This document shows positions 21,245 through 54,988 of a DNA stretch of 64,000 bases, piece after piece. The stretch covers positions 43,815 through 107,814 of IMG/VR virus record IMGVR_UViG_3300044646_001284. One strand, 5' to 3'. Below the pieces are notes generated by a model, which was not told the origin of the DNA, did not search any database, and was given only the letters and a program-made list of their open reading frames with translations. Made by a program: the position numbers and the translations under genes. The DNA is from a virus. The stretch's first letter is position 1. Each line of letters starts with the position of its first letter.

Positions 21245-21559
21245 ATGAAATCATACAAACAGTTTCTTTCAGAGAGTATTACTATTCAAGGTGACTTTAA
21301 TGGAACTTTGAACATTGGATCTCAACCAACTCCACAAAAAGTTGGAGAAGAATTTGCTGTAGATTTTGTTTGGCAAGGCAGCATCTACAGAGTGGAGATG
21401 GTAACTAATGATGGAATCCCATCAAAGAATAAATTAACAGAGCATCTTCAGAATGAATATCCTGGAGCAATCATTCATAACATTTATCCATCAACTCCCA
21501 GGTCTTCAAACATTACAAAGGTAAATAGGTATCATCCAGCAAAATTGGAATGGATTTGA
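21245..21559 (+). CDS. Small late protein with capsid-targeting-like N terminus
   Basis: A 104-residue protein beginning MKSYKQFLSES. This opening resembles the short N-terminal targeting peptides that send T4 internal proteins into the prohead, and L-S-E followed by S at residues 8-11 fits the gp21 protease consensus (Leu or Ile, any residue, Glu). The rest (residues 14-100) has no recognised domain and looks like a small alpha/beta protein. It starts two bases after the upstream stop and lies in the packaging gene cluster, so it is late-expressed by context. Packaging into the head is inference based on the tag. Confidence 0.55.
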   Translation: MKSYKQFLSESITIQGDFNGTLNIGSQPTPQKVGEEFAVDFVWQGSIYRVEMVTNDGIPSKNKLTEHLQNEYPGAIIHNIYPSTPRSSNITKVNRYHPAKLEWI

Positions 21560-43547: not shown

Positions 43548-43988
43548 ATGACTAACCTTGCAACCTCACGGTTTACATCTGCGGATCTTCCTGCTCTAAT
43601 GGATAGGATTACTCGCAATAGTATTGGAATGGATGAGTATTTTGATAGATTGTTTAATCTTCATGAAACAACATCAAATTATCCACCCTATAATCTAATT
43701 CAGGTAAATAATGTAGAATCTCATTTAGAGATTGCACTTGCGGGATTCAAAAGGGAGGAAGTAAATGTCTTCACAGAGTATGGAAAACTTTTTGTCGAAG
43801 GACAAAAATCAGATACTGAATCGGATAGGACGTTTGTCCACAAGGGTTTGGCTCAACGAAGTTTCAAAAGAGCATGGACACTCTCAGATGACACAGAGGT
43901 CAGAGAAGTCATCTTTGAAGATGGATTACTTGTCATTCGATTAGGAAAGATTGTTCCAGAGCATCATACACGTAAAAATTATCTCTAA
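43548..43988 (+). CDS. hsp20: Small heat shock protein Hsp20
   Basis: A 146-residue alpha-crystallin-type chaperone, common in T4-like cyanophages. The ATG at 43548 with AAAAAGGAG upstream is chosen over a TTG at 43491. The crystallin domain spans about 45-140: LIQVNNVESHLEIALAGFKR, EEVNVFTEYGKLFVEG, GLAQRSFKRAWTLSDDTEV and DGLLVIRLGKIVPE. It has its own promoter and is closed by a strong terminator, so it is an independent transcription unit between regA and the late nucleotidyltransferase gene. A role in folding of phage proteins is inferred from the family. Confidence 0.93.
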   Translation: MTNLATSRFTSADLPALMDRITRNSIGMDEYFDRLFNLHETTSNYPPYNLIQVNNVESHLEIALAGFKREEVNVFTEYGKLFVEGQKSDTESDRTFVHKGLAQRSFKRAWTLSDDTEVREVIFEDGLLVIRLGKIVPEHHTRKNYL

Positions 43989-44075: not shown

Positions 44076-44804
44076 ATGAAGACATATACTGGGTTTTTTA
44101 AAGAATCTATATCTTTCCAAATACATAATCAATTAAATCCTACTTTTTGGGATGGTGAAGTTTTGCGTCCTAAAGTTAGATCGCAACTCAAAAAAATTGC
44201 CATGGCTTGGATTGATTATGTTGGTTTAAATAAAAATTCTGTAGAAGATATTTTACTTCTTGGTGGTAATGCAGGATATAACTACACAAAGTATTCTGAT
44301 TTGGATTTGCATGTAGTCATTGATATGGATAAAGCACCAGATTGTCCAGATTTGCTTTCTGATTACTTTAAAGATAAAAAACAACTTTGGACATTAACAC
44401 ATGATATAAAAATCTATGGACATTCTGTAGAACCTTATATTGAAGAAGTTGGAAAGAAAAGAAGAAAAAATCAAGGGGTGTATTCAGTTAAGAATAACAA
44501 ATGGATTGTTTTTCCTGGCAAGTTTGATGGTACTGTAGATAGGGACTTGCTAAAAACAAAGGTTTCTGATATGATGAGAAAGATTGACAGCGTTATTAAA
44601 ACCGGAAACAATGTTTCTGTGTTGGAAAATCTTCTGAAAAAAATCAGAGATATGAGAAATGCTGGGTTAGATAAATCTGGCGAGTTTGCTTTTGAAAATC
44701 TTGTATTCAAAGAATTGAGAAATAAAGGATACATAGACAAACTTGCTGATTATATTATAAAATTACAAGATAAATCATTAACTTTAGAAAATTATGTCTG
44801 TTAA
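44076..44804 (+). CDS. Nucleotidyltransferase-fold protein with capsid-targeting-like N terminus
   Basis: A 242-residue protein from the ATG at 44076 (the TTG one codon earlier is not needed). It starts MKTYTGFFKES, much like the prohead-targeting tags of T4 internal proteins and like the proteins at 21245 and 53699. Residues 60-83 hold LLLGGNAGYNY and SDLDLHVVID, the G-G-x(many)-D-x-D pattern of polymerase-beta-type nucleotidyltransferases, with D75 and D77 as likely metal ligands. A later H-x-V-E-P-Y-I-E motif may give the third. A late promoter drives it. Transfer of a nucleotide to RNA or protein after injection is speculation; the substrate is unknown. Confidence 0.72.
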   Translation: MKTYTGFFKESISFQIHNQLNPTFWDGEVLRPKVRSQLKKIAMAWIDYVGLNKNSVEDILLLGGNAGYNYTKYSDLDLHVVIDMDKAPDCPDLLSDYFKDKKQLWTLTHDIKIYGHSVEPYIEEVGKKRRKNQGVYSVKNNKWIVFPGKFDGTVDRDLLKTKVSDMMRKIDSVIKTGNNVSVLENLLKKIRDMRNAGLDKSGEFAFENLVFKELRNKGYIDKLADYIIKLQDKSLTLENYVC

Positions 44805-47819: not shown

Positions 47820-48824
47820 ATGGACTTTCTTAAAGATATCGTAAAGGAAATTGGTGGAGAATACACACAACTGGCAGCAGACATTGATGAAACTGAAACA
47901 TATGTGGACACAGGTAGTTACATATTCAATGCTCTTGTGTCTGGGAGTATCAATGGTGGTGTATCTGGTAACAAAATCACTGCAATTGCAGGTGAAAGTT
48001 CTACTGGAAAAACATTCTTCTCTCTTGCAGTTGTCAAGCATTTTCTTGATAATAATACTAATGGATATTGTCTGTATTTTGATACTGAAGCTGCAATAAC
48101 AAAATCCATGCTTGAAAGTAGAGGATTGGATACCAGTAGAGTTGTAGTTGTTAATGTTGTTACTATTGAAGAGTTTAGGTCAAAGGCACTTAAAGCAGTT
48201 GATTTGTATCTCAAAAGAAAAGAAGGAGAACGTAAACCTTGTATGTTTGTTCTTGATTCTCTTGGTATGCTTTCTACAGAAAAGGAAATTCAAGATGCTT
48301 TAGATGATAAGCAAGTTCGTGACATGACTAAATCGCAACTTATCAAAGGTGCATTTAGAATGTTGACTCTTAAATTGGGACAAGCAAAGATTCCTATGAT
48401 TGTAACTAATCACACTTATGATGTTGTTGGTTCATATGTACCAACTAAAGAAATGAGTGGTGGTTCTGGTCTTAAGTATGCAGCATCTACAATCATCTAT
48501 CTTTCTAAAAAGAAAGAAAAGGATGGCACTGAAGTAGTTGGTAATATCATCAAGGCAACAACCCACAAATCAAGGTTGAGTAAAGAAAATAAAACAGTAG
48601 AGATTCGTCTTTATTATGATGAGAGGGGATTGGATAAGTATTATGGTCTTTTAGAGTTGGCGGAAAAATATGAAATCTTCAAGAAGGTGGGAACTCGTTA
48701 TGATGTGGGAAATGGTATTACTCAGTTTGGAAAAACTATTATGGAAGCTCCACAGAAATACTTTACGCCAGAAATCCTCCAAGCACTTGATGAAGTAGCA
48801 AAAAAAGAATTTTCTTATGGTTGA
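47820..48824 (+). CDS. uvsX: Recombinase UvsX
   Basis: RecA-like recombinase for strand exchange and recombination-dependent replication. The ATG at 47820, two bases after the polymerase stop, gives [17 protein letters not shown]; an upstream TTG at 47772 inside gene 43 is rejected. The 334-residue protein has Walker A GESSTGKT at 59-66, [10 protein letters not shown] near 88, [11 protein letters not shown] (Walker B) near 147, and the loop region [14 protein letters not shown] near 213-226. T4 UvsX has 391 residues. Its partner uvsY lies 14 kb upstream. Confidence 0.95.
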
Positions 48825-48829
48825 TTTGA

Positions 48830-50209
48830 ATGGATAGTATTGAAGTTACAATTTTAAGAAATTTACTTTTTAATAATGAATATTGCAGAAAGGTTTTACC
48901 TTTTATTAAATTAGATTATTTTGAGAACTTTCATGAGAAAGTTCTCTTTGATGAAATGAGTAAGTTTATCACTACATATGACAGTCTTGCTACCAAAGAA
49001 GTTCTCTTGATTGAGGCAGAAAAAAGAACTGATATTAGTGAAGATACTTATAAAACAATCTGTGAATATGTTTCTAATCTTGATGATTCCCCAGCAGAAC
49101 TCAACTGGTTGATTGACACTACAGAAAAGTGGTGTAGAGATCGTGCCATTTATCTGGCACTCATGGAATCAATTAAAATTGCTGATGGTCAGGAAGAAAC
49201 AAAATCAAGAGATGCCATTCCATCTATTTTGCAAGAAGCACTTGCTATTGGATTTGACCACAATATTGGACATGATTACTTAAATGACTATGAACAAAGA
49301 TATGAATCATATCACAGGAAGGAAGACAAAATTCCATTTGACCTTGATTACTTCAACAAAATTACAAAAGGTGGCATACCTAATAAGACTCTCAATATCG
49401 CTTTGGCTGGCACAGGTGTCGGGAAAAGTTTATTCATGTGCCATATGGCTAGCTCCGTCCTCCTGCAAGGGCGCAATGTTCTCTACATTACACTTGAAAT
49501 GGCAGAAGAAAGGATTGCTGAAAGAATTGATGCAAATCTTTTGAATGTTAATATCAAAGATATTGAAGAACTTCCCAAGAAAGTTTTTGAAACTAAAGTA
49601 AATAGCATTAGTAAAAAGACTCAAGGGACTTTAATTATTAAAGAATACCCTACTGCTTCTGCTCATACAGGGCACTTTAAGGCACTTCTCAATGAACTTT
49701 CTCTCAAGAAATCATTTAGACCTGATATTATTTTCATTGACTACCTTAATATTTGTGGTTCCTCTAGGTATAAGGCAAACTTTTCAGTCAATTCTTATAG
49801 TTATGTCAAAGCAATTGCTGAAGAACTTAGAGGTTTGGCAGTGGAATTCAATGTTCCCATTGTCTCTGCTACCCAGACTACCCGCAGTGGTTATGGCAAC
49901 TCTGATGTTGAACTTACTGATACTAGTGAGTCCTTTGGTCTCCCTGCTACTGCTGATCTTATGTTTGCCCTTATTAGCACTGAAGAGTTGGAGCAACTTG
50001 GGCAGATTATGGTAAAGCAATTGAAAAATAGATATAATGACCCTACCATCAATAAAAGATTTGTTGTTGGTATTGATAGAGCAAAAATGAGACTCTATGA
50101 TTGTGAACAGAAGGCACAAGATAATATTCTTGACTCTGGAAAGGAAGAGGAGTATACTTATGAAGAAGAACCTAAAAAAGACAAATTCGCTGGATTTAAA
50201 TTCTCATGA
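48830..50209 (+). CDS. 41: Replicative helicase gp41
   Basis: DnaB-type hexameric helicase of the primosome, 459 residues (T4 475). It begins MDSIEVTILRNLLFNNEYC, and has Walker A AGTGVGKS at 193-200, Walker B DIIFIDYLNICGS near 299-311, and VPIVSATQTTRSGYGN near 342-357 (H4-type loop motif). A short stretch around 49390-49480 near the Walker A is more GC-rich than the surroundings. The C terminus KDKFAGFKFS resembles the C terminus of NrdB in this window (KDTFAGFKL). It overlaps mazG by four bases. Confidence 0.95.
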   Translation: MDSIEVTILRNLLFNNEYCRKVLPFIKLDYFENFHEKVLFDEMSKFITTYDSLATKEVLLIEAEKRTDISEDTYKTICEYVSNLDDSPAELNWLIDTTEKWCRDRAIYLALMESIKIADGQEETKSRDAIPSILQEALAIGFDHNIGHDYLNDYEQRYESYHRKEDKIPFDLDYFNKITKGGIPNKTLNIALAGTGVGKSLFMCHMASSVLLQGRNVLYITLEMAEERIAERIDANLLNVNIKDIEELPKKVFETKVNSISKKTQGTLIIKEYPTASAHTGHFKALLNELSLKKSFRPDIIFIDYLNICGSSRYKANFSVNSYSYVKAIAEELRGLAVEFNVPIVSATQTTRSGYGNSDVELTDTSESFGLPATADLMFALISTEELEQLGQIMVKQLKNRYNDPTINKRFVVGIDRAKMRLYDCEQKAQDNILDSGKEEEYTYEEEPKKDKFAGFKFS

Positions 50210-50616
50210 TTGATAAAGTTGATTTTAACAAGTATAAAAACTTTGTAGATGCAGTTACATCAGATGCATCAAAAGATTTTGTAGCATTTTCAGATCGTAT
50301 TGTAGAACTGGATCGCAAAGGTGCTAATATTGAACGCCTTCTCACTGCTGGTGTTGGCATCAATGCTGAAGGTGGTGAGTTTCTTGAGATTGTTAAGAAG
50401 ATGATTTTTCAAGGTAAGCCATGGAATGAAGATAACAAAGACCACCTGATTACTGAACTTGGTGATATGATGTGGTATGTTATGCAGGCATGTATTGCTC
50501 TTGAAGTTCCTTTGGATTATGTGGTTTCGAGGAATGTTGACAAACTGATGAAGCGTTATCCTGAAGGTGCATTTGATGTATTCTATTCGGAACATCGTTC
50601 TGAAGACGATAGATAA
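50206..50616 (+). CDS. mazG: MazG-type nucleotide pyrophosphohydrolase
   Basis: A 136-residue MazG-fold enzyme typical of cyanophages. The metal-binding set is visible: E55, E58 and E61 in AEGGEFLEIVKK, and E84 and D87 in ITELGDMMWYVMQ. KPWNEDNKDHL between them is a conserved cyanophage loop. It hydrolyses nucleoside triphosphates. Suggested roles are nucleotide recycling for phage DNA or manipulation of host ppGpp, but the substrate cannot be read from sequence. It overlaps gene 41 by four bases and so belongs to the replication operon. Confidence 0.9.
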   Translation: MIDKVDFNKYKNFVDAVTSDASKDFVAFSDRIVELDRKGANIERLLTAGVGINAEGGEFLEIVKKMIFQGKPWNEDNKDHLITELGDMMWYVMQACIALEVPLDYVVSRNVDKLMKRYPEGAFDVFYSEHRSEDDR

Positions 50617-50628
50617 TAATAAAAACCT

Positions 50629-51399
50629 ATGACTGCAAAATTTGATAGGTATGAAATACTAATTGCAGAAGAGATTAATAAAATAAAAGGTCTTACTGCG
50701 ATAAGACCTGCATCAAATGTTCATTATTCTGATGTAAAAATTACAAAAAATGGAAAAACCTCTTTTGTAGAAGTAAAGATGGAAGATAGTAAGGGACAAT
50801 ATCCACAAATTGTAAATACAAGATTTAATTATAATATTACATTACCTGGAAAATGGGGATCTACTAATCCTGGTGCAGCAGCTGAATTTATGGTAGATAA
50901 ACTAAATTCCTCAACGATAACAAAAAATATTGTAAAAGAATTATCTCAATTTATTAAAATACCTTTAGATAAATTAAAGATTCCAACAACTTTTGGAAAT
51001 TTAAAAAAATATGCTGATGTATCTCCATCTAAAGAACAAATTAAAAAATTTTTTTCTGATGGTGGAGGAATAAGAGGTAGGCAATATATTTTTGAAATTA
51101 AAAATATAGATATGAGTGAACTAGCTAAATTACATTATATGACTGGAAAAACATTTCCTGCAGACTACATACAACTGGGAGACAATTTTTTTAGAATGAA
51201 TGAACATGATACTTTTAATCTTAAACATGTTCCTATGTTAAATGGAAAAGGAAATTTGTTAGTTAGATTTTCTATACTAAATTCAAAAAATTATTATGAA
51301 ATTCAACCTGAAGCAAAGTTTAATAAAAATAGTATTGTAAAAAGTCAATATTCATTTCACCCAGGAACTAAAAAGTTAAACCCATTTTTTTCTTTATAA
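50629..51399 (+). CDS. Hypothetical protein with PD-(D/E)XK-like nuclease residues
   Basis: A 256-residue basic protein that I do not recognise as a named family. Residues 5-50 hold FDRYEILIAEEINKIKG, then NVHYSDVKI and TSFVEVKMED: a helix with Glu14, Asp35 at a strand start, and E48-x-K50. This is the spacing of the PD-(D/E)XK nuclease core. The rest has RGRQYIFEIKNID and a C-terminal FHPGTKKLNPFFSL. It is three bases upstream of another candidate nuclease and then a DNA methyltransferase, so a restriction-like or DNA-processing role is possible. A structural or resolvase function is an alternative. Confidence 0.5.
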   Translation: MTAKFDRYEILIAEEINKIKGLTAIRPASNVHYSDVKITKNGKTSFVEVKMEDSKGQYPQIVNTRFNYNITLPGKWGSTNPGAAAEFMVDKLNSSTITKNIVKELSQFIKIPLDKLKIPTTFGNLKKYADVSPSKEQIKKFFSDGGGIRGRQYIFEIKNIDMSELAKLHYMTGKTFPADYIQLGDNFFRMNEHDTFNLKHVPMLNGKGNLLVRFSILNSKNYYEIQPEAKFNKNSIVKSQYSFHPGTKKLNPFFSL

Positions 51400-51401
51400 C
51401 T

Positions 51402-52679
51402 ATGGCAACAGAAACAGATTTATTTGAAGCAGCTTCTATAGTTACTTTTTATTATGCGATAGATAAAGGTGCCAACTTAATCCCCAATCAGGATTTAATT
51501 CTTTTTGAAGATTTGAAAAAAGAATTTCCTAATATGGATAAAGAATGGTATGAAGGTTTGCTCAAACAAGCAAGAGCACTTGTAAAATATCTTTCTCATT
51601 CTGAAGGTGCTGAAGATACTTCTTGGAAATATGCAAGATATGGTGGTAAAACAAAAACTCTACCTCCAAATAAAGATACTGATATCTATGATTATATTTG
51701 GAATAGTTTTAATAGACAGCAGCAACAATTATTTACAGGTAAAAAAGATAGTTGGAATACTACAGATGTCTATATGGTAAAATCATCTGAAGAATATAAA
51801 ATTAAACAAATGGTAGATTTGTTAAAAGATGAATTTTCAGATGGAACAACTGCACCAGAAGTATTTGTTGGAACTGTTAATGCTTACTTGAGCCAACTTT
51901 TAAGAGATAAAAAACTTGTAGGTATTTCTCTTAAAAAGCCAACAAAGGCAGAACCAGAATCTCATGTATATGAAACCAATCTTGATGTTGGTCCTGATGG
52001 AATTGAAGTTCATGAAGGTAATATTATAGGTGAAATGTTTACTTATATGGAAATAAGTAAAAGAGGTGGTGAAACTGATTTTGCAGGAAACTCCTTAACC
52101 TTTGAGGCACAATTTAAAGCAGGAAAATATATTAAAAGATATTTTTGGGAGAGTAAAGTTTCAAGTGCTGCTGCTCATGCAACAGAACCAAGAGATAGAG
52201 TTCCTAATAATAAAGGAAAATATGTAAATGCTACTGCAAGAAATGGTGCTATTCCTGCTCCAAAAATGGCAGACCTTGTTAAAAAGTATACTGGGGAAGA
52301 TATTAATTACAACATTCCTTTAAGTGGAAAATTTACAGATGCTCATTTGAAATATTGGCAAAAGTATTTTAAAGACATAGTTTCTGATAGAACCATTAAA
52401 AAAGATTTTGGTAAAGTTTCTGTTTTGGGAAGACAAGTTTCTCCAGAAGTTTTTATTGAATTAGCTTTTGAATTGGATAAGGTATCTCCAAATCCATCTG
52501 GTAAAAACTTTGCAGTTAAGTTGAGAAGTAAGTTAAGAATTTTGAGATACATTAAAATGTTTATTGGAGCAAAAAGACAAGGAAAATTAGCAGAACTTAT
52601 TACTCATGCGTACTTCTTGTCATCAAAAATGAACATTAGTCAAGCAGACTTGTCTGGACCCTTTATCAAGGTCCAGTGA
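51402..52679 (+). CDS. Hypothetical protein with possible PD-(D/E)XK-like domain
   Basis: A 425-residue protein. Residues 112-180 read TGKKDSWNTTDVYMVKS, then a helix, then KLVGISLKKPTK: W-N-x-x-D-(V/I) followed by G-I-S-L-K-K is a pattern I associate with PD-(D/E)XK-type nuclease domains in phage proteins, with Asp122 and Lys178 as possible catalytic residues. The first 100 residues are helical (KEWYEGLLKQARALVKYLSH), and the C-terminal half (about 220-425) is unknown. It starts two bases after the upstream candidate nuclease, which suggests they work together, and is followed by a methyltransferase gene. The function is unproven. Confidence 0.45.
   Translation: MATETDLFEAASIVTFYYAIDKGANLIPNQDLILFEDLKKEFPNMDKEWYEGLLKQARALVKYLSHSEGAEDTSWKYARYGGKTKTLPPNKDTDIYDYIWNSFNRQQQQLFTGKKDSWNTTDVYMVKSSEEYKIKQMVDLLKDEFSDGTTAPEVFVGTVNAYLSQLLRDKKLVGISLKKPTKAEPESHVYETNLDVGPDGIEVHEGNIIGEMFTYMEISKRGGETDFAGNSLTFEAQFKAGKYIKRYFWESKVSSAAAHATEPRDRVPNNKGKYVNATARNGAIPAPKMADLVKKYTGEDINYNIPLSGKFTDAHLKYWQKYFKDIVSDRTIKKDFGKVSVLGRQVSPEVFIELAFELDKVSPNPSGKNFAVKLRSKLRILRYIKMFIGAKRQGKLAELITHAYFLSSKMNISQADLSGPFIKVQ
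52654..52676. repeat. Inverted repeat before the methyltransferase gene
   Basis: CTGGACC (52654-52660) and GGTCCAG (52670-52676) form a perfect 7-bp arm pair around nine bases. No T run follows, so it is not a standard terminator. It covers the place of the -35 region of the downstream extended -10 promoter and could be an operator or a message hairpin. Confidence 0.5.
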
Positions 52680-52681
52680 TG

Positions 52682-52690
52682 TGCTATACT
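52682..52690 (+). promoter_or_regulatory. Extended -10 promoter for the methyltransferase
   Basis: TGCTATACT (52682-52690) matches an extended -10, with the same TATACT as the gene 55 promoter. No clear -35 is present. The next start codon is 20 bases downstream with TGGAGA as ribosome binding site. Confidence 0.5.
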
Positions 52691-52710
52691 GGTAAAATAC
52701 TGGAGACCTT

Positions 52711-53478
52711 ATGATTGACCTGAGAACTGGAGACTGTATTGAGTTGGCAAAACAACTTGATGACAACTCTATTGATTGCACTGTAACTTCACCACCATAC
52801 AACAAACAAAAGATTGGTGGTGGTTTGTTTCGTAAAATTGAATATGATAATTTTGATGATTCACTTCCAGAGGATGTTTATCAAGAGCAACAGATTGAAC
52901 TTCTGAATGTTCTTTTTGACAAAACCAAAGAGGGTGGTTCTTTATTTTACAATCATAAAGTCAGGTATCTTGAAGGTAATGCAACTTCTCCTTGGGCATG
53001 GTTGCCTAAAACTAAATGGCACATCAGAGAAGAGATTATCTGGAACAGAGGTAGTGGTCCAGAGATTTCTGGATACAGATTCACACAGATTGATGAAAGA
53101 ATCTACTGGTTGTGTAAAGGTGCTAAGCGTCCTAAACTTCCCAGAAGGTCTGTAAACTATGGAAGTGTTTGGAAGTTTGGACCTGAGATGAAGAATCCTC
53201 ATCCTGCACCATTTCCTATTGTTCTTCCACTTCGTTGCATCCAAGCAGTAATGGAATCTCCTGGTGTTATTCTTGATCCTTACAGTGGATCAGGAACTAC
53301 AGGTCTTGCTGCTACGCTTCTTGGTCATGATTACATTGGGTTTGATCTTTCTGATGATTATCATACTATGGCAAAAGAAAGAATCAATAATCCATCCAGA
53401 AGAGACCTTGAAAGGTTTACCGAAGAGTGTGGTGTTGAGGTAAATACAGAAAGAGATATCTTTACCTTACTTTCCTGA
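52711..53478 (+). CDS. Site-specific DNA methyltransferase (beta class)
   Basis: A 255-residue SAM-dependent methyltransferase. Catalytic motif IV TSPPY at 26-30 comes first, and the SAM-binding motif ILDPYSGSGTTGLAA near 187-201 comes last, the order of beta-class enzymes that methylate cytosine N4 or adenine N6. GHDYIGFDLSDDYHTMA after it is motif II. S-P-P-Y favours N4-cytosine, but this is not decisive. It has its own promoter and follows two candidate nucleases. A second methylase (dam) is in the clamp-loader operon. It may protect phage DNA against host or its own nuclease. Confidence 0.9.
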   Translation: MIDLRTGDCIELAKQLDDNSIDCTVTSPPYNKQKIGGGLFRKIEYDNFDDSLPEDVYQEQQIELLNVLFDKTKEGGSLFYNHKVRYLEGNATSPWAWLPKTKWHIREEIIWNRGSGPEISGYRFTQIDERIYWLCKGAKRPKLPRRSVNYGSVWKFGPEMKNPHPAPFPIVLPLRCIQAVMESPGVILDPYSGSGTTGLAATLLGHDYIGFDLSDDYHTMAKERINNPSRRDLERFTEECGVEVNTERDIFTLLS

Positions 53479-53702
53479 TGGAAGAATTTTTCGATGACTT
53501 AATTAGATTATACAAACAACACATAAGAATTACGCAACTAAAAAAGAAAACTATTGAAAATTTTTCCAGATTTTATGTAAGTTTTGTAGACCAAGACAAA
53601 AATCCAAAAGATAAGAAAGATAAATATTTACAAGTAAAACGACTTGGTTTGCAATATATTCAGCAAAACCAAGATTTGATATATAAAAAAATTAATAAAT
53701 GA
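53478..53702 (+). CDS. Small basic hypothetical protein
   Basis: A 74-residue, Lys-rich, helical protein starting MEEFFDDLIRLYKQHIRITQ, with no recognised domain. The start shares a base with the methyltransferase stop (TGATG), and the stop overlaps the next start (ATGA), so it is translated within this cluster. The many Lys residues suggest nucleic-acid contact, which is only a guess. Confidence 0.5.
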   Translation: MEEFFDDLIRLYKQHIRITQLKKKTIENFSRFYVSFVDQDKNPKDKKDKYLQVKRLGLQYIQQNQDLIYKKINK

Positions 53703-54988
53703 AGAAGTTTTCTGAGTTTATAGTAGAAGCAAGAAGTTCCCAAGCAGCTCAAAAGGCACACAAGCTTGGGTTACAGGGTGATGGGCACGGATATTGGATT
53801 GATAAACAACAGAAACGAGTAGCACAAACTGTCAAAGGACAACTGCAATTTATTTCTGGTAAGAAGAAAGGTAAGAGTGGTGAAGATGGTGATGGTGAAG
53901 AAGGTAAAGAACCATCAAGAGTATCAACAGGAAAGTTTAGAGGACAAAAACCTGGAAAGAAAAGACTAGGTGCTAAAGCACCACAACCAACTGCAAAAAG
54001 AGCACCAGCTCCAGCAGCAACACCAAGACCAAAGGCAACAGCACAGGAACCAACGCCAAAACCAAAAGAAACTATAAGAGATGAAGTAGTTACTGTTGTC
54101 TTTGGTAAGTTTAATCCTCCAACACAAGCACATAAAAGGGTATTGGAGTCTGCAAAGAAAACAGCATCTGGTGGAAATTTTTACGTTTTCCCAAGTAGAA
54201 CACAAGATGGTAAAAAGAATCCATTAGACCCAGACACAAAGATTTCGTATATGAAGGAAATGTTCCCTGAGTATGCTGATAGTATTATTGATAGTGATGA
54301 GTTTCAAACCATCTTTGATGTTCTTCAGTTCTTGAATCAAGAAGGATATACTGGAGTTAATATTGTTTGTGGGGCAGAAAGAGTTTCTGAGATTGATAAT
54401 CTTGCTAATAAAAGTAATGGACAGTTGTATGATTACCAATCAATCAATGTAGTATCTTCTGGTTCAAAAGATGCTGAATCAGAAAGTGGATCATCTGATG
54501 TTGCAAGAAAAGCAGCAGCAGAAAAAGATTTTGAAACATTCAAGAAAGCACTTCCTTCAGGATTTAGCGGTGCTAAACAAATGTTCACTGACCTTCAACA
54601 GTCTATGAATATCAAAGAAGGTTATAGACTTTGGGAAATTGCTCCTGAATATGATTGGAAAGGATTGAGAGAAAATTATGTCTTTGGGCATTTGTATCAA
54701 GTGGGCACAATAATTGAAAGTTGTAATACAGGGTTGATAGGAAAAGTTATAAGGTCTGGTGCTAATCATTTAATCTGTGTAACTGAAGATGGAATTATGT
54801 TCAAGTCTTGGATAAAGGACGTTTGTGAGTATACAGAAGTCAAGATGGATAAGATGACAAGAGAACCAGGAAAACCAAATACTCTTGTAGGAACTGTAGG
54901 ATATACAAAGTATGTTGCCTCTATGACTCCTGGAGCAACAGTGGATACTATAAATAAAAAAAGGAAAGAACTAACAAAAAGTAAATGA
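53699..54988 (+). CDS. Cytidylyltransferase-like protein with capsid-targeting-like N terminus
   Basis: A 429-residue protein of several parts. It starts MKKFSEFIVEARSSQ, like the prohead tags at 21245 and 44076; I-V-E before Ala at residues 8-11 fits the gp21 cut site. Residues 19-52 (AHKLGLQGDGHGYWIDKQ and on) are a small module seen in marine phages. A Pro/Ala/Lys linker follows at about 85-125. Residues 130-150 hold VVFGKFNPPTQAHKRV, the nucleotidyltransferase motif of the HxGH family, although the second His is replaced (Q-A-H). A C-terminal beta domain follows. The substrate is unknown. Confidence 0.65.
   Translation: MKKFSEFIVEARSSQAAQKAHKLGLQGDGHGYWIDKQQKRVAQTVKGQLQFISGKKKGKSGEDGDGEEGKEPSRVSTGKFRGQKPGKKRLGAKAPQPTAKRAPAPAATPRPKATAQEPTPKPKETIRDEVVTVVFGKFNPPTQAHKRVLESAKKTASGGNFYVFPSRTQDGKKNPLDPDTKISYMKEMFPEYADSIIDSDEFQTIFDVLQFLNQEGYTGVNIVCGAERVSEIDNLANKSNGQLYDYQSINVVSSGSKDAESESGSSDVARKAAAEKDFETFKKALPSGFSGAKQMFTDLQQSMNIKEGYRLWEIAPEYDWKGLRENYVFGHLYQVGTIIESCNTGLIGKVIRSGANHLICVTEDGIMFKSWIKDVCEYTEVKMDKMTREPGKPNTLVGTVGYTKYVASMTPGATVDTINKKRKELTKSK

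Follow-up and report, generated by a model that had tools for sequence, protein, structure and literature searches.

Two unrelated DNA-processing proteins, mostly alternatives in one replication-operon slot of T4-like cyanophages, as candidate stand-ins for Endonuclease VII

In bacteriophage T4, branched DNA is cut by Endonuclease VII (gp49). Passages of PMC2993671 and PMC2984593 state that T4 needs this enzyme, that T4-like cyanophages are without denA, ndd and denB, and that gp49 is missing from some of them; in two T4 relatives, again in a passage of PMC2993671, gp49 has been replaced by other nucleases. Further points of comparison are the archaeal Hjc resolvases, the restriction enzymes R.HhaI and HinP1I, the CCGG-family restriction enzymes (Cfr10I, Bse634I and others), to which a section of PMC6344858 assigns a permuted PD...K...D/E site, and the T4 internal proteins, for which a section of PMC9026906 treats the role of the capsid targeting sequence. 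The present study concerns a 64,000-nucleotide stretch (hereafter the window; positions 43,815 to 107,814) of the IMG/VR virus record IMGVR_UViG_3300044646_001284, which is 107,814 bases long and whose host is probably an ocean cyanobacterium. Here the gene for a 256-residue protein, P1, is followed two bases later by that for a 425-residue protein, P2, and then by a DNA methyltransferase gene, MT. A first-pass annotation, made from the sequence alone, had suggested that two nucleases and a methylase might form a restriction-modification-like unit. The open reading frames, the protein sizes and the 2-base gap that it gave are all correct; what it observed is confirmed in part, and what it made of the observation is partly supported. 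Our analysis indicates that P1 and P2 mostly take each other's place at one slot of a T4-like replication operon, and we tentatively propose that they stand in for Endonuclease VII as alternative nucleases for branched DNA. They are thus candidates for how T4-like cyanophages clear branched DNA or dismantle host DNA. P1 represents a family missed by the isolate records searched, and the role proposed for P2, if true, would assign a function to a cyanophage protein that is widespread yet listed as "hypothetical".

Conserved residues and predicted folds of P1 and P2

A search of IMG/VR returned 174 relatives of P1, of which the best 80 were kept, and residue conservation was counted over 42 non-redundant family members. 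D6, E9, A13, D35, E48, V49 and K50, among others, are invariant in all 42. The first-pass annotation had proposed E14, D35 and E48-x-K50 as a PD-(D/E)XK core; D35 and E48-x-K50 are borne out, but position 14 carries E in only 6 of the 42, and the third conserved acid is instead E9. The predicted model is confident (predicted local distance difference test score, pLDDT, 93.1; predicted template modeling score, pTM, 0.87) and places E9 in the first helix, D35 just ahead of strand 36-40 and E48-x-K50 within the adjacent strand 43-50. P1 thus has both the D...(D/E)-x-K signature on adjacent strands and the core fold by which PD-(D/E)XK proteins are recognized. Fold comparisons, whose matches and negatives cover only the families listed by each search, agree with this assignment. 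VIA-align put R.HhaI on top (Z 10.4 over 178 residues, 4.3 Å), followed by archaeal Hjc resolvases (Z 8.2 and below), with RecU lower and HinP1I at Z 6.3 over 151 residues; the leading rows from Foldseek were I-Ssp6803I, Hjc, EcoRV and RecU, with E-values that were not significant (best 0.26). Because the conserved residues, the model and the fold alignments coincide, it is well supported that P1 is a PD-(D/E)XK nuclease with an HhaI-like extension and predicted cleavage activity.

P1 resembles R.HhaI in length as well (256 against 258 residues), yet the two are only 13% identical over the aligned part and, unlike R.HhaI and HinP1I, P1 mostly occurs without a methyltransferase partner. With Hjc it shares an N-terminal core in which E, D and E-x-K follow in the same order, but P1 has roughly double its length and a large C-terminal part, and junction cutting by P1 is a proposal only. 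A weak profile match (E 0.92) links residues 4-59 to the resolvase of Thermus phage 15-6. No credible Pfam or PHROG family match was found, and rows returned for single members were judged to be chance (best Pfam, PF24170 at E 8.6e-05 in 1 of 42 members; best PHROG, 0.0086). Queries with P0001 and with a more typical family member found no match in 50,697 phage records, and none of 74 pattern matches in genome contigs was confirmed as a cellular relative, a weak test that used one pattern set. P1 is a new family within the known PD-(D/E)XK superfamily, a classification with no literature search by name behind it. One P1 homolog (L139, positions 869-1645) carries an N-terminal extension resembling a capsid targeting sequence, the choice of its start codon being uncertain.

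P2 matches phrog_1462 over its full length (E 7.9e-39, residues 2-424), and tblastn with three members of the family gave hits in 101, 99 and 129 phage records, of which almost all are cyanophages and one is a Pseudoalteromonas phage. Conservation was counted over an alignment of 38 divergent sequences, only 15-51% identical to the window P2; that of cyanophage S-SKS1 was excluded because it is broken. W49, W118, D122, S176, L177, K178 and N193 are invariant; N119 is kept in 32 sequences and E9 in 36, with the remaining two carrying E one position on. The motifs singled out by the first-pass annotation, W118-N-x-x-D122 and G-I-S-L-K-K at 174-179, therefore have an invariant core (W118, D122 and S176-L177-K178), and since this holds in such divergent homologs they mark the stretches where the family varies least and are no chance resemblance. 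In the predicted model (pLDDT 90.3, pTM 0.82) E9 lies in the first helix and D122 ahead of strand 123-127, and S176-x-K178 falls where strand 172-177 ends; S176 stands where D or E would be expected ahead of x-K178. No solved structure was matched by fold search or by profile search, and all BFVD matches with E up to 1e-3 are proteins of phages, of which the named ones are uncharacterized. The earlier suggestion that P2 is a nuclease is thus plausible from the invariant E...D...SxK residues and, because no solved fold matches, only plausible. The spacing from D to SxK in Cfr10I resembles that in P2, where SxK follows D by 54 residues; unlike in the CCGG family, the following acid, E191, is kept in only 36 of 46 sequences and neither fold nor profile matches, and a Cfr10I-type enzyme was rejected despite the attractive spacing. 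Common descent with P1 was likewise rejected, as the two profiles show no similarity (hhalign probability 0.3). P2 is a known uncharacterized family to which we attribute a putative catalytic site, again with no literature search by name, and none of 11 pattern matches in genome contigs was confirmed as a cellular relative, the test being a weak one with one pattern set. Record notes split P2 homologs over clusters T4-GC 419 and 533 (L003, L187, L188 and L196), and what were counted as two families may be a single widespread one.

One slot, two occupants and the distribution of Endonuclease VII

Neighborhoods in IMG/VR, whose records may be fragments, were read around the best 80 of the 174 P1 relatives and the best 80 of at least 327 P2 relatives, plus P2 loci from another search; because the best-ranked loci were used, the tallies lean to near relatives. 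After P1 (60 distinct proteins) the next gene encodes a DUF6267 protein (PF19782, assigned for three members) in 24 cases, a cytidylyltransferase in 11, P2 in 7 and something else in 16, while two reach the contig end; where P2 follows, MT comes after it wherever the sequence is readable. After P2 (70 distinct proteins, near relatives favored) it is MT in 52, another gene in 4 and the contig end in 14. The 24 isolates with a whole P2 give a different picture: DUF6267 is next in 19 and MT in one, Prochlorococcus phage P-TIM68, and cytidylyltransferase is among the next genes in 23. Isolate XG4, which has no annotation, gave no match in the neighborhood search, cytidylyltransferase included. XG4 and S-SCSM1 were placed by tblastn; they were found only by the P2 profile that already contained them and missed by the other, and their matches are thus no independent control. 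Among 14 long records, ten have P1 only, three have P2 with MT only and one has all three; neither P2 nor this MT was found in the ten, some of which are fragments. The slot has the order uvsX–gp41–mazG–(P1 or P2)–DUF6267–cytidylyltransferase, and these neighbor tallies and presence counts together show that P1 and P2 are mostly alternatives in it. In S-PM2 no occupant was found within the stretch read.

The alleles within the slot also exchange, as judged by identity to the window sequences only. At 11 loci (L059, L060, L064, L065, L075-L078 and L080-L082) mazG is 83-97% and MT 85-97% identical to the window, yet P2 is only 37-47% identical. Conversely, P1 is 46% identical beside a P2 of 95% in L012, and 39% beside a P2 of 88% in L017. 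Within the window clade P1 occurs only alongside a P2 of 87-100% identity, and in L043, a more distant genome, P2 is 55% identical. Because MT stays similar while P2 or P1 diverges, sequence comparison indicates that it is not tied to either allele.

The distribution of Endonuclease VII (PF02945) in the tested records is complementary. It was found in none of 15 records with P1 or P2 and in one (S-SKS1) of 20 further records, and hence in none of the 34 records with a whole P1 or P2, a small, related and chosen sample; as a control, the search detected it in T4. Moreover, the five records examined that do carry an Endonuclease VII-type gene all lack a whole P1 or P2. S-SKS1, the sole P2-bearing isolate with Endonuclease VII among those tested, has its P2 in three pieces (L185, HQ633071.1 about 73497-74732), one with an in-frame stop, although this breakage could be a sequencing fault. 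Neither P2 nor P1 was found in the others, T4, S-PM2, S-B05 and RB11-B; the P1 search of these lacked an internal positive control, the same profile having detected P1 elsewhere. P1 and P2 belong to families different from that of T4 Endonuclease VII and no similarity is claimed: the comparison concerns a proposed role and complementary occurrence in the tested records.

Possible roles of P1, P2 and the methyltransferase

Collectively, the two families with their invariant residues, the predicted fold of P1, the exchange within one slot and the lack of detectable Endonuclease VII in the tested records suggest a model in which two unrelated DNA-processing proteins, mostly alternatives at one position of the replication operon, would supply the branched-DNA cutting done in T4 by gp49, which is apparently missing here. 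P1 would act as an Hjc/HhaI-like PD-(D/E)XK endonuclease, with metal held by E9, D35 and E48 and with use of K50, and P2, if it is a nuclease, would act through a site formed by E9, D122, S176-x-K178 and N193. In the window clade both would be present, with a methyltransferase lodged downstream. Branched DNA would be their substrate, and either protein might then be essential to its phage. Several observations weigh against this model. The fold search matched P1 best to a restriction enzyme, while P2 has no matching fold and one of its relatives bears the annotation of a virion protein. Both proteins occur together in the window clade and in L043/L107 (one contig), and alleles of P2 and P1 swap fast between conserved flanks, which is odd for a housekeeping enzyme. 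In S-PM2, S-B05 and RB11-B the Endonuclease VII-type gene adjoins psbA and in S-PM2 it is named as the homing endonuclease F-CphI, so it may not be gp49; in addition, of 37 Synechococcus records that have a gene of this type only 4 were examined, and a passage of PMC3037559 lists Enase VII in five cyanophage genomes. It is doubtful that the fuller scenario holds throughout, in which two unrecognized nuclease families replaced Endonuclease VII and each other, became stacked with a methyltransferase in the window clade and, for P2, may also travel in the virion.

About as doubtful is the main alternative, in which P2, and perhaps P1, is packaged in the capsid, leaves it together with the genome, the cytidylyltransferase and further internal proteins, and acts early on host DNA or on a host defense. 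Such a nuclease could replace host-DNA-degrading enzymes that the cyanomyoviruses lack (denA, ndd and denB, in a passage of PMC2984593). The virion annotation of a P2 relative and the fast allele exchange, which fits an arms race, are better explained in this way than by a stand-in for Endonuclease VII. In S-SCSM1 the P2 homolog and its neighbors gp089, NMNAT, gp280 and gp279 are annotated as virion proteins, the labels falling on a TIM355-like gene ahead of the P2 homolog and on an NMNAT-like protein and two more after it. The virion status of this homolog rests on the record annotation. A passage of PMC9602691 reports 45 S-SCSM1 virion proteins by mass spectrometry and itself warns of carry-over, which tells against the idea. 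S-CREM1 also carries P2; a passage of PMC9964418 gives 14 virion proteins for this phage, nine of them with no known function, and P2 may be one of the 14. Passages of PMC3037559 and PMC10665884 place the cytidylyltransferase in the virions of S-SM1 and S-CREM2. One 738-residue protein (L093:3101-5314) has the N-terminal region of the cytidylyltransferase, with its targeting-like sequence and a DGHGG motif, fused ahead of P2 (blastp E 5.5e-10). The N-termini of the cytidylyltransferase and of many DUF6267 proteins are MKxFxxFLxEA-like, as are those of T4 internal proteins; such starts occur in 3 of 100 window open reading frames that begin with ATG and at none of 382 internal methionines. Unlike T4 internal proteins, the window P1 and P2 have no capsid targeting-like N-terminus, and the virion evidence concerns P2, with none of the kind for P1. 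The virion annotation and the lack of any Protein Data Bank fold or profile match, with BFVD matches confined to phage proteins of no named function, would also suit a non-catalytic P2, a virion or scaffold-associated protein that is merely an unrelated neighbor of the nuclease P1. This is unlikely, since the residues kept across P2 at such low identity are polar and enzyme-like.

Least probable is the restriction-modification-like unit, in which P1, P2 or both would cut unmethylated host or rival DNA while MT would shield the genome of the phage. In its favor, P1 aligns best in structure with R.HhaI, and the gene after P2 is MT in 52 of the 56 near relatives from IMG/VR that could be read, and in P-TIM68. 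Nevertheless, the nuclease gene of a type II system regularly lies beside a methyltransferase gene, and here it does not: P1 mostly has neither P2 nor this MT beside it and P2 follows it in 7 of 60, MT follows P2 in one of 24 isolates, and MT does not change with either allele. The neighborhood and allele evidence rules this out as the main explanation, and the nuclease pair with a methylase proposed in the first-pass annotation is not supported as a unit. Homologs without an adjacent methyltransferase, which it had named as grounds for doubt, are the rule for most P1 and for P2 in isolates, but not in the window's own clade; its alternative of a recombination nuclease fares better. PF01555 is present in 8 of the 24 isolates, adjoining P2 only in P-TIM68, was not found in the remaining 16 (other methyltransferase classes were not searched), and occurs in four of the ten P1-only records, once below the family cut-off. 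Since PF01555 was the only class searched and N6A-methylase is listed in 14 of 16 cyanophages in a passage of PMC3037559, a distant methylase may protect the phage DNA. We consider that P1 and P2 probably serve in the routine cutting of DNA, viral or host, and not in restriction together with MT.

Gene order around the slot

The features of the locus are collected below.

Table 1. Genes at and around the P1/P2 slot of the window
Feature	Position	Strand	Remarks
gp41-type helicase gene	48830..50209	+	Open reading frame; same-position homolog annotated primase-helicase in isolates; upstream slot edge
mazG-type pyrophosphohydrolase	50206..50616	+	PF03819 E 4.4e-07; phrog_22758 E 6.2e-52
P1, 256 residues, predicted PD-(D/E)XK nuclease	50629..51399	+	E9, D35, E48, K50
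P2, 425 residues, putative nuclease	51402..52679	+	phrog_1462; invariant D122, S176-L-K178, N193; near-invariant E9
MT, 255 residues, beta-class N6/N4 DNA methyltransferase	52711..53478	+	PF01555 E 2.4e-31; phrog_67 E 2.7e-52
74-residue open reading frame, no assigned function	53478..53702	+	Kept in near relatives
Cytidylyltransferase-like (NMNAT-like) gene	53699..54988	+	phrog_395 E 2.7e-82; T4 capsid-targeting-like N-terminus; downstream slot edge

The beta class given to MT at first pass is correct, because residues 21-223 match Pfam N6_N4_Mtase and SPPY precedes DPYSGSGTTG. The promoter of its own once attributed to MT finds no support: the region has 13 promoter-like sites against a shuffle mean of 15.6, and the one directly upstream (52663-52690) matches at 9 of 12 positions. 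By both P2 (34%) and MT (79%) the closest isolate is P-TIM68, where the order is mazG, another gene, P2, MT and cytidylyltransferase, with no P1; the 355-residue gene preceding P2 there was compared with P1 and ruled out as a homolog.

Three window genes (21245-21559, 44076-44804 and 53699-54988) have MKxYxxF/L-type starts and are candidates for internal, ejected proteins. A 182-residue open reading frame is inserted between mazG and P1 in L014 (2723-3271). In L012, one of 185 residues (1908-2465) lies between uvsX and gp41, where the window (48824-48830) is without it; several isolates have at this position a gene annotated as a 2OG-Fe(II) oxygenase.

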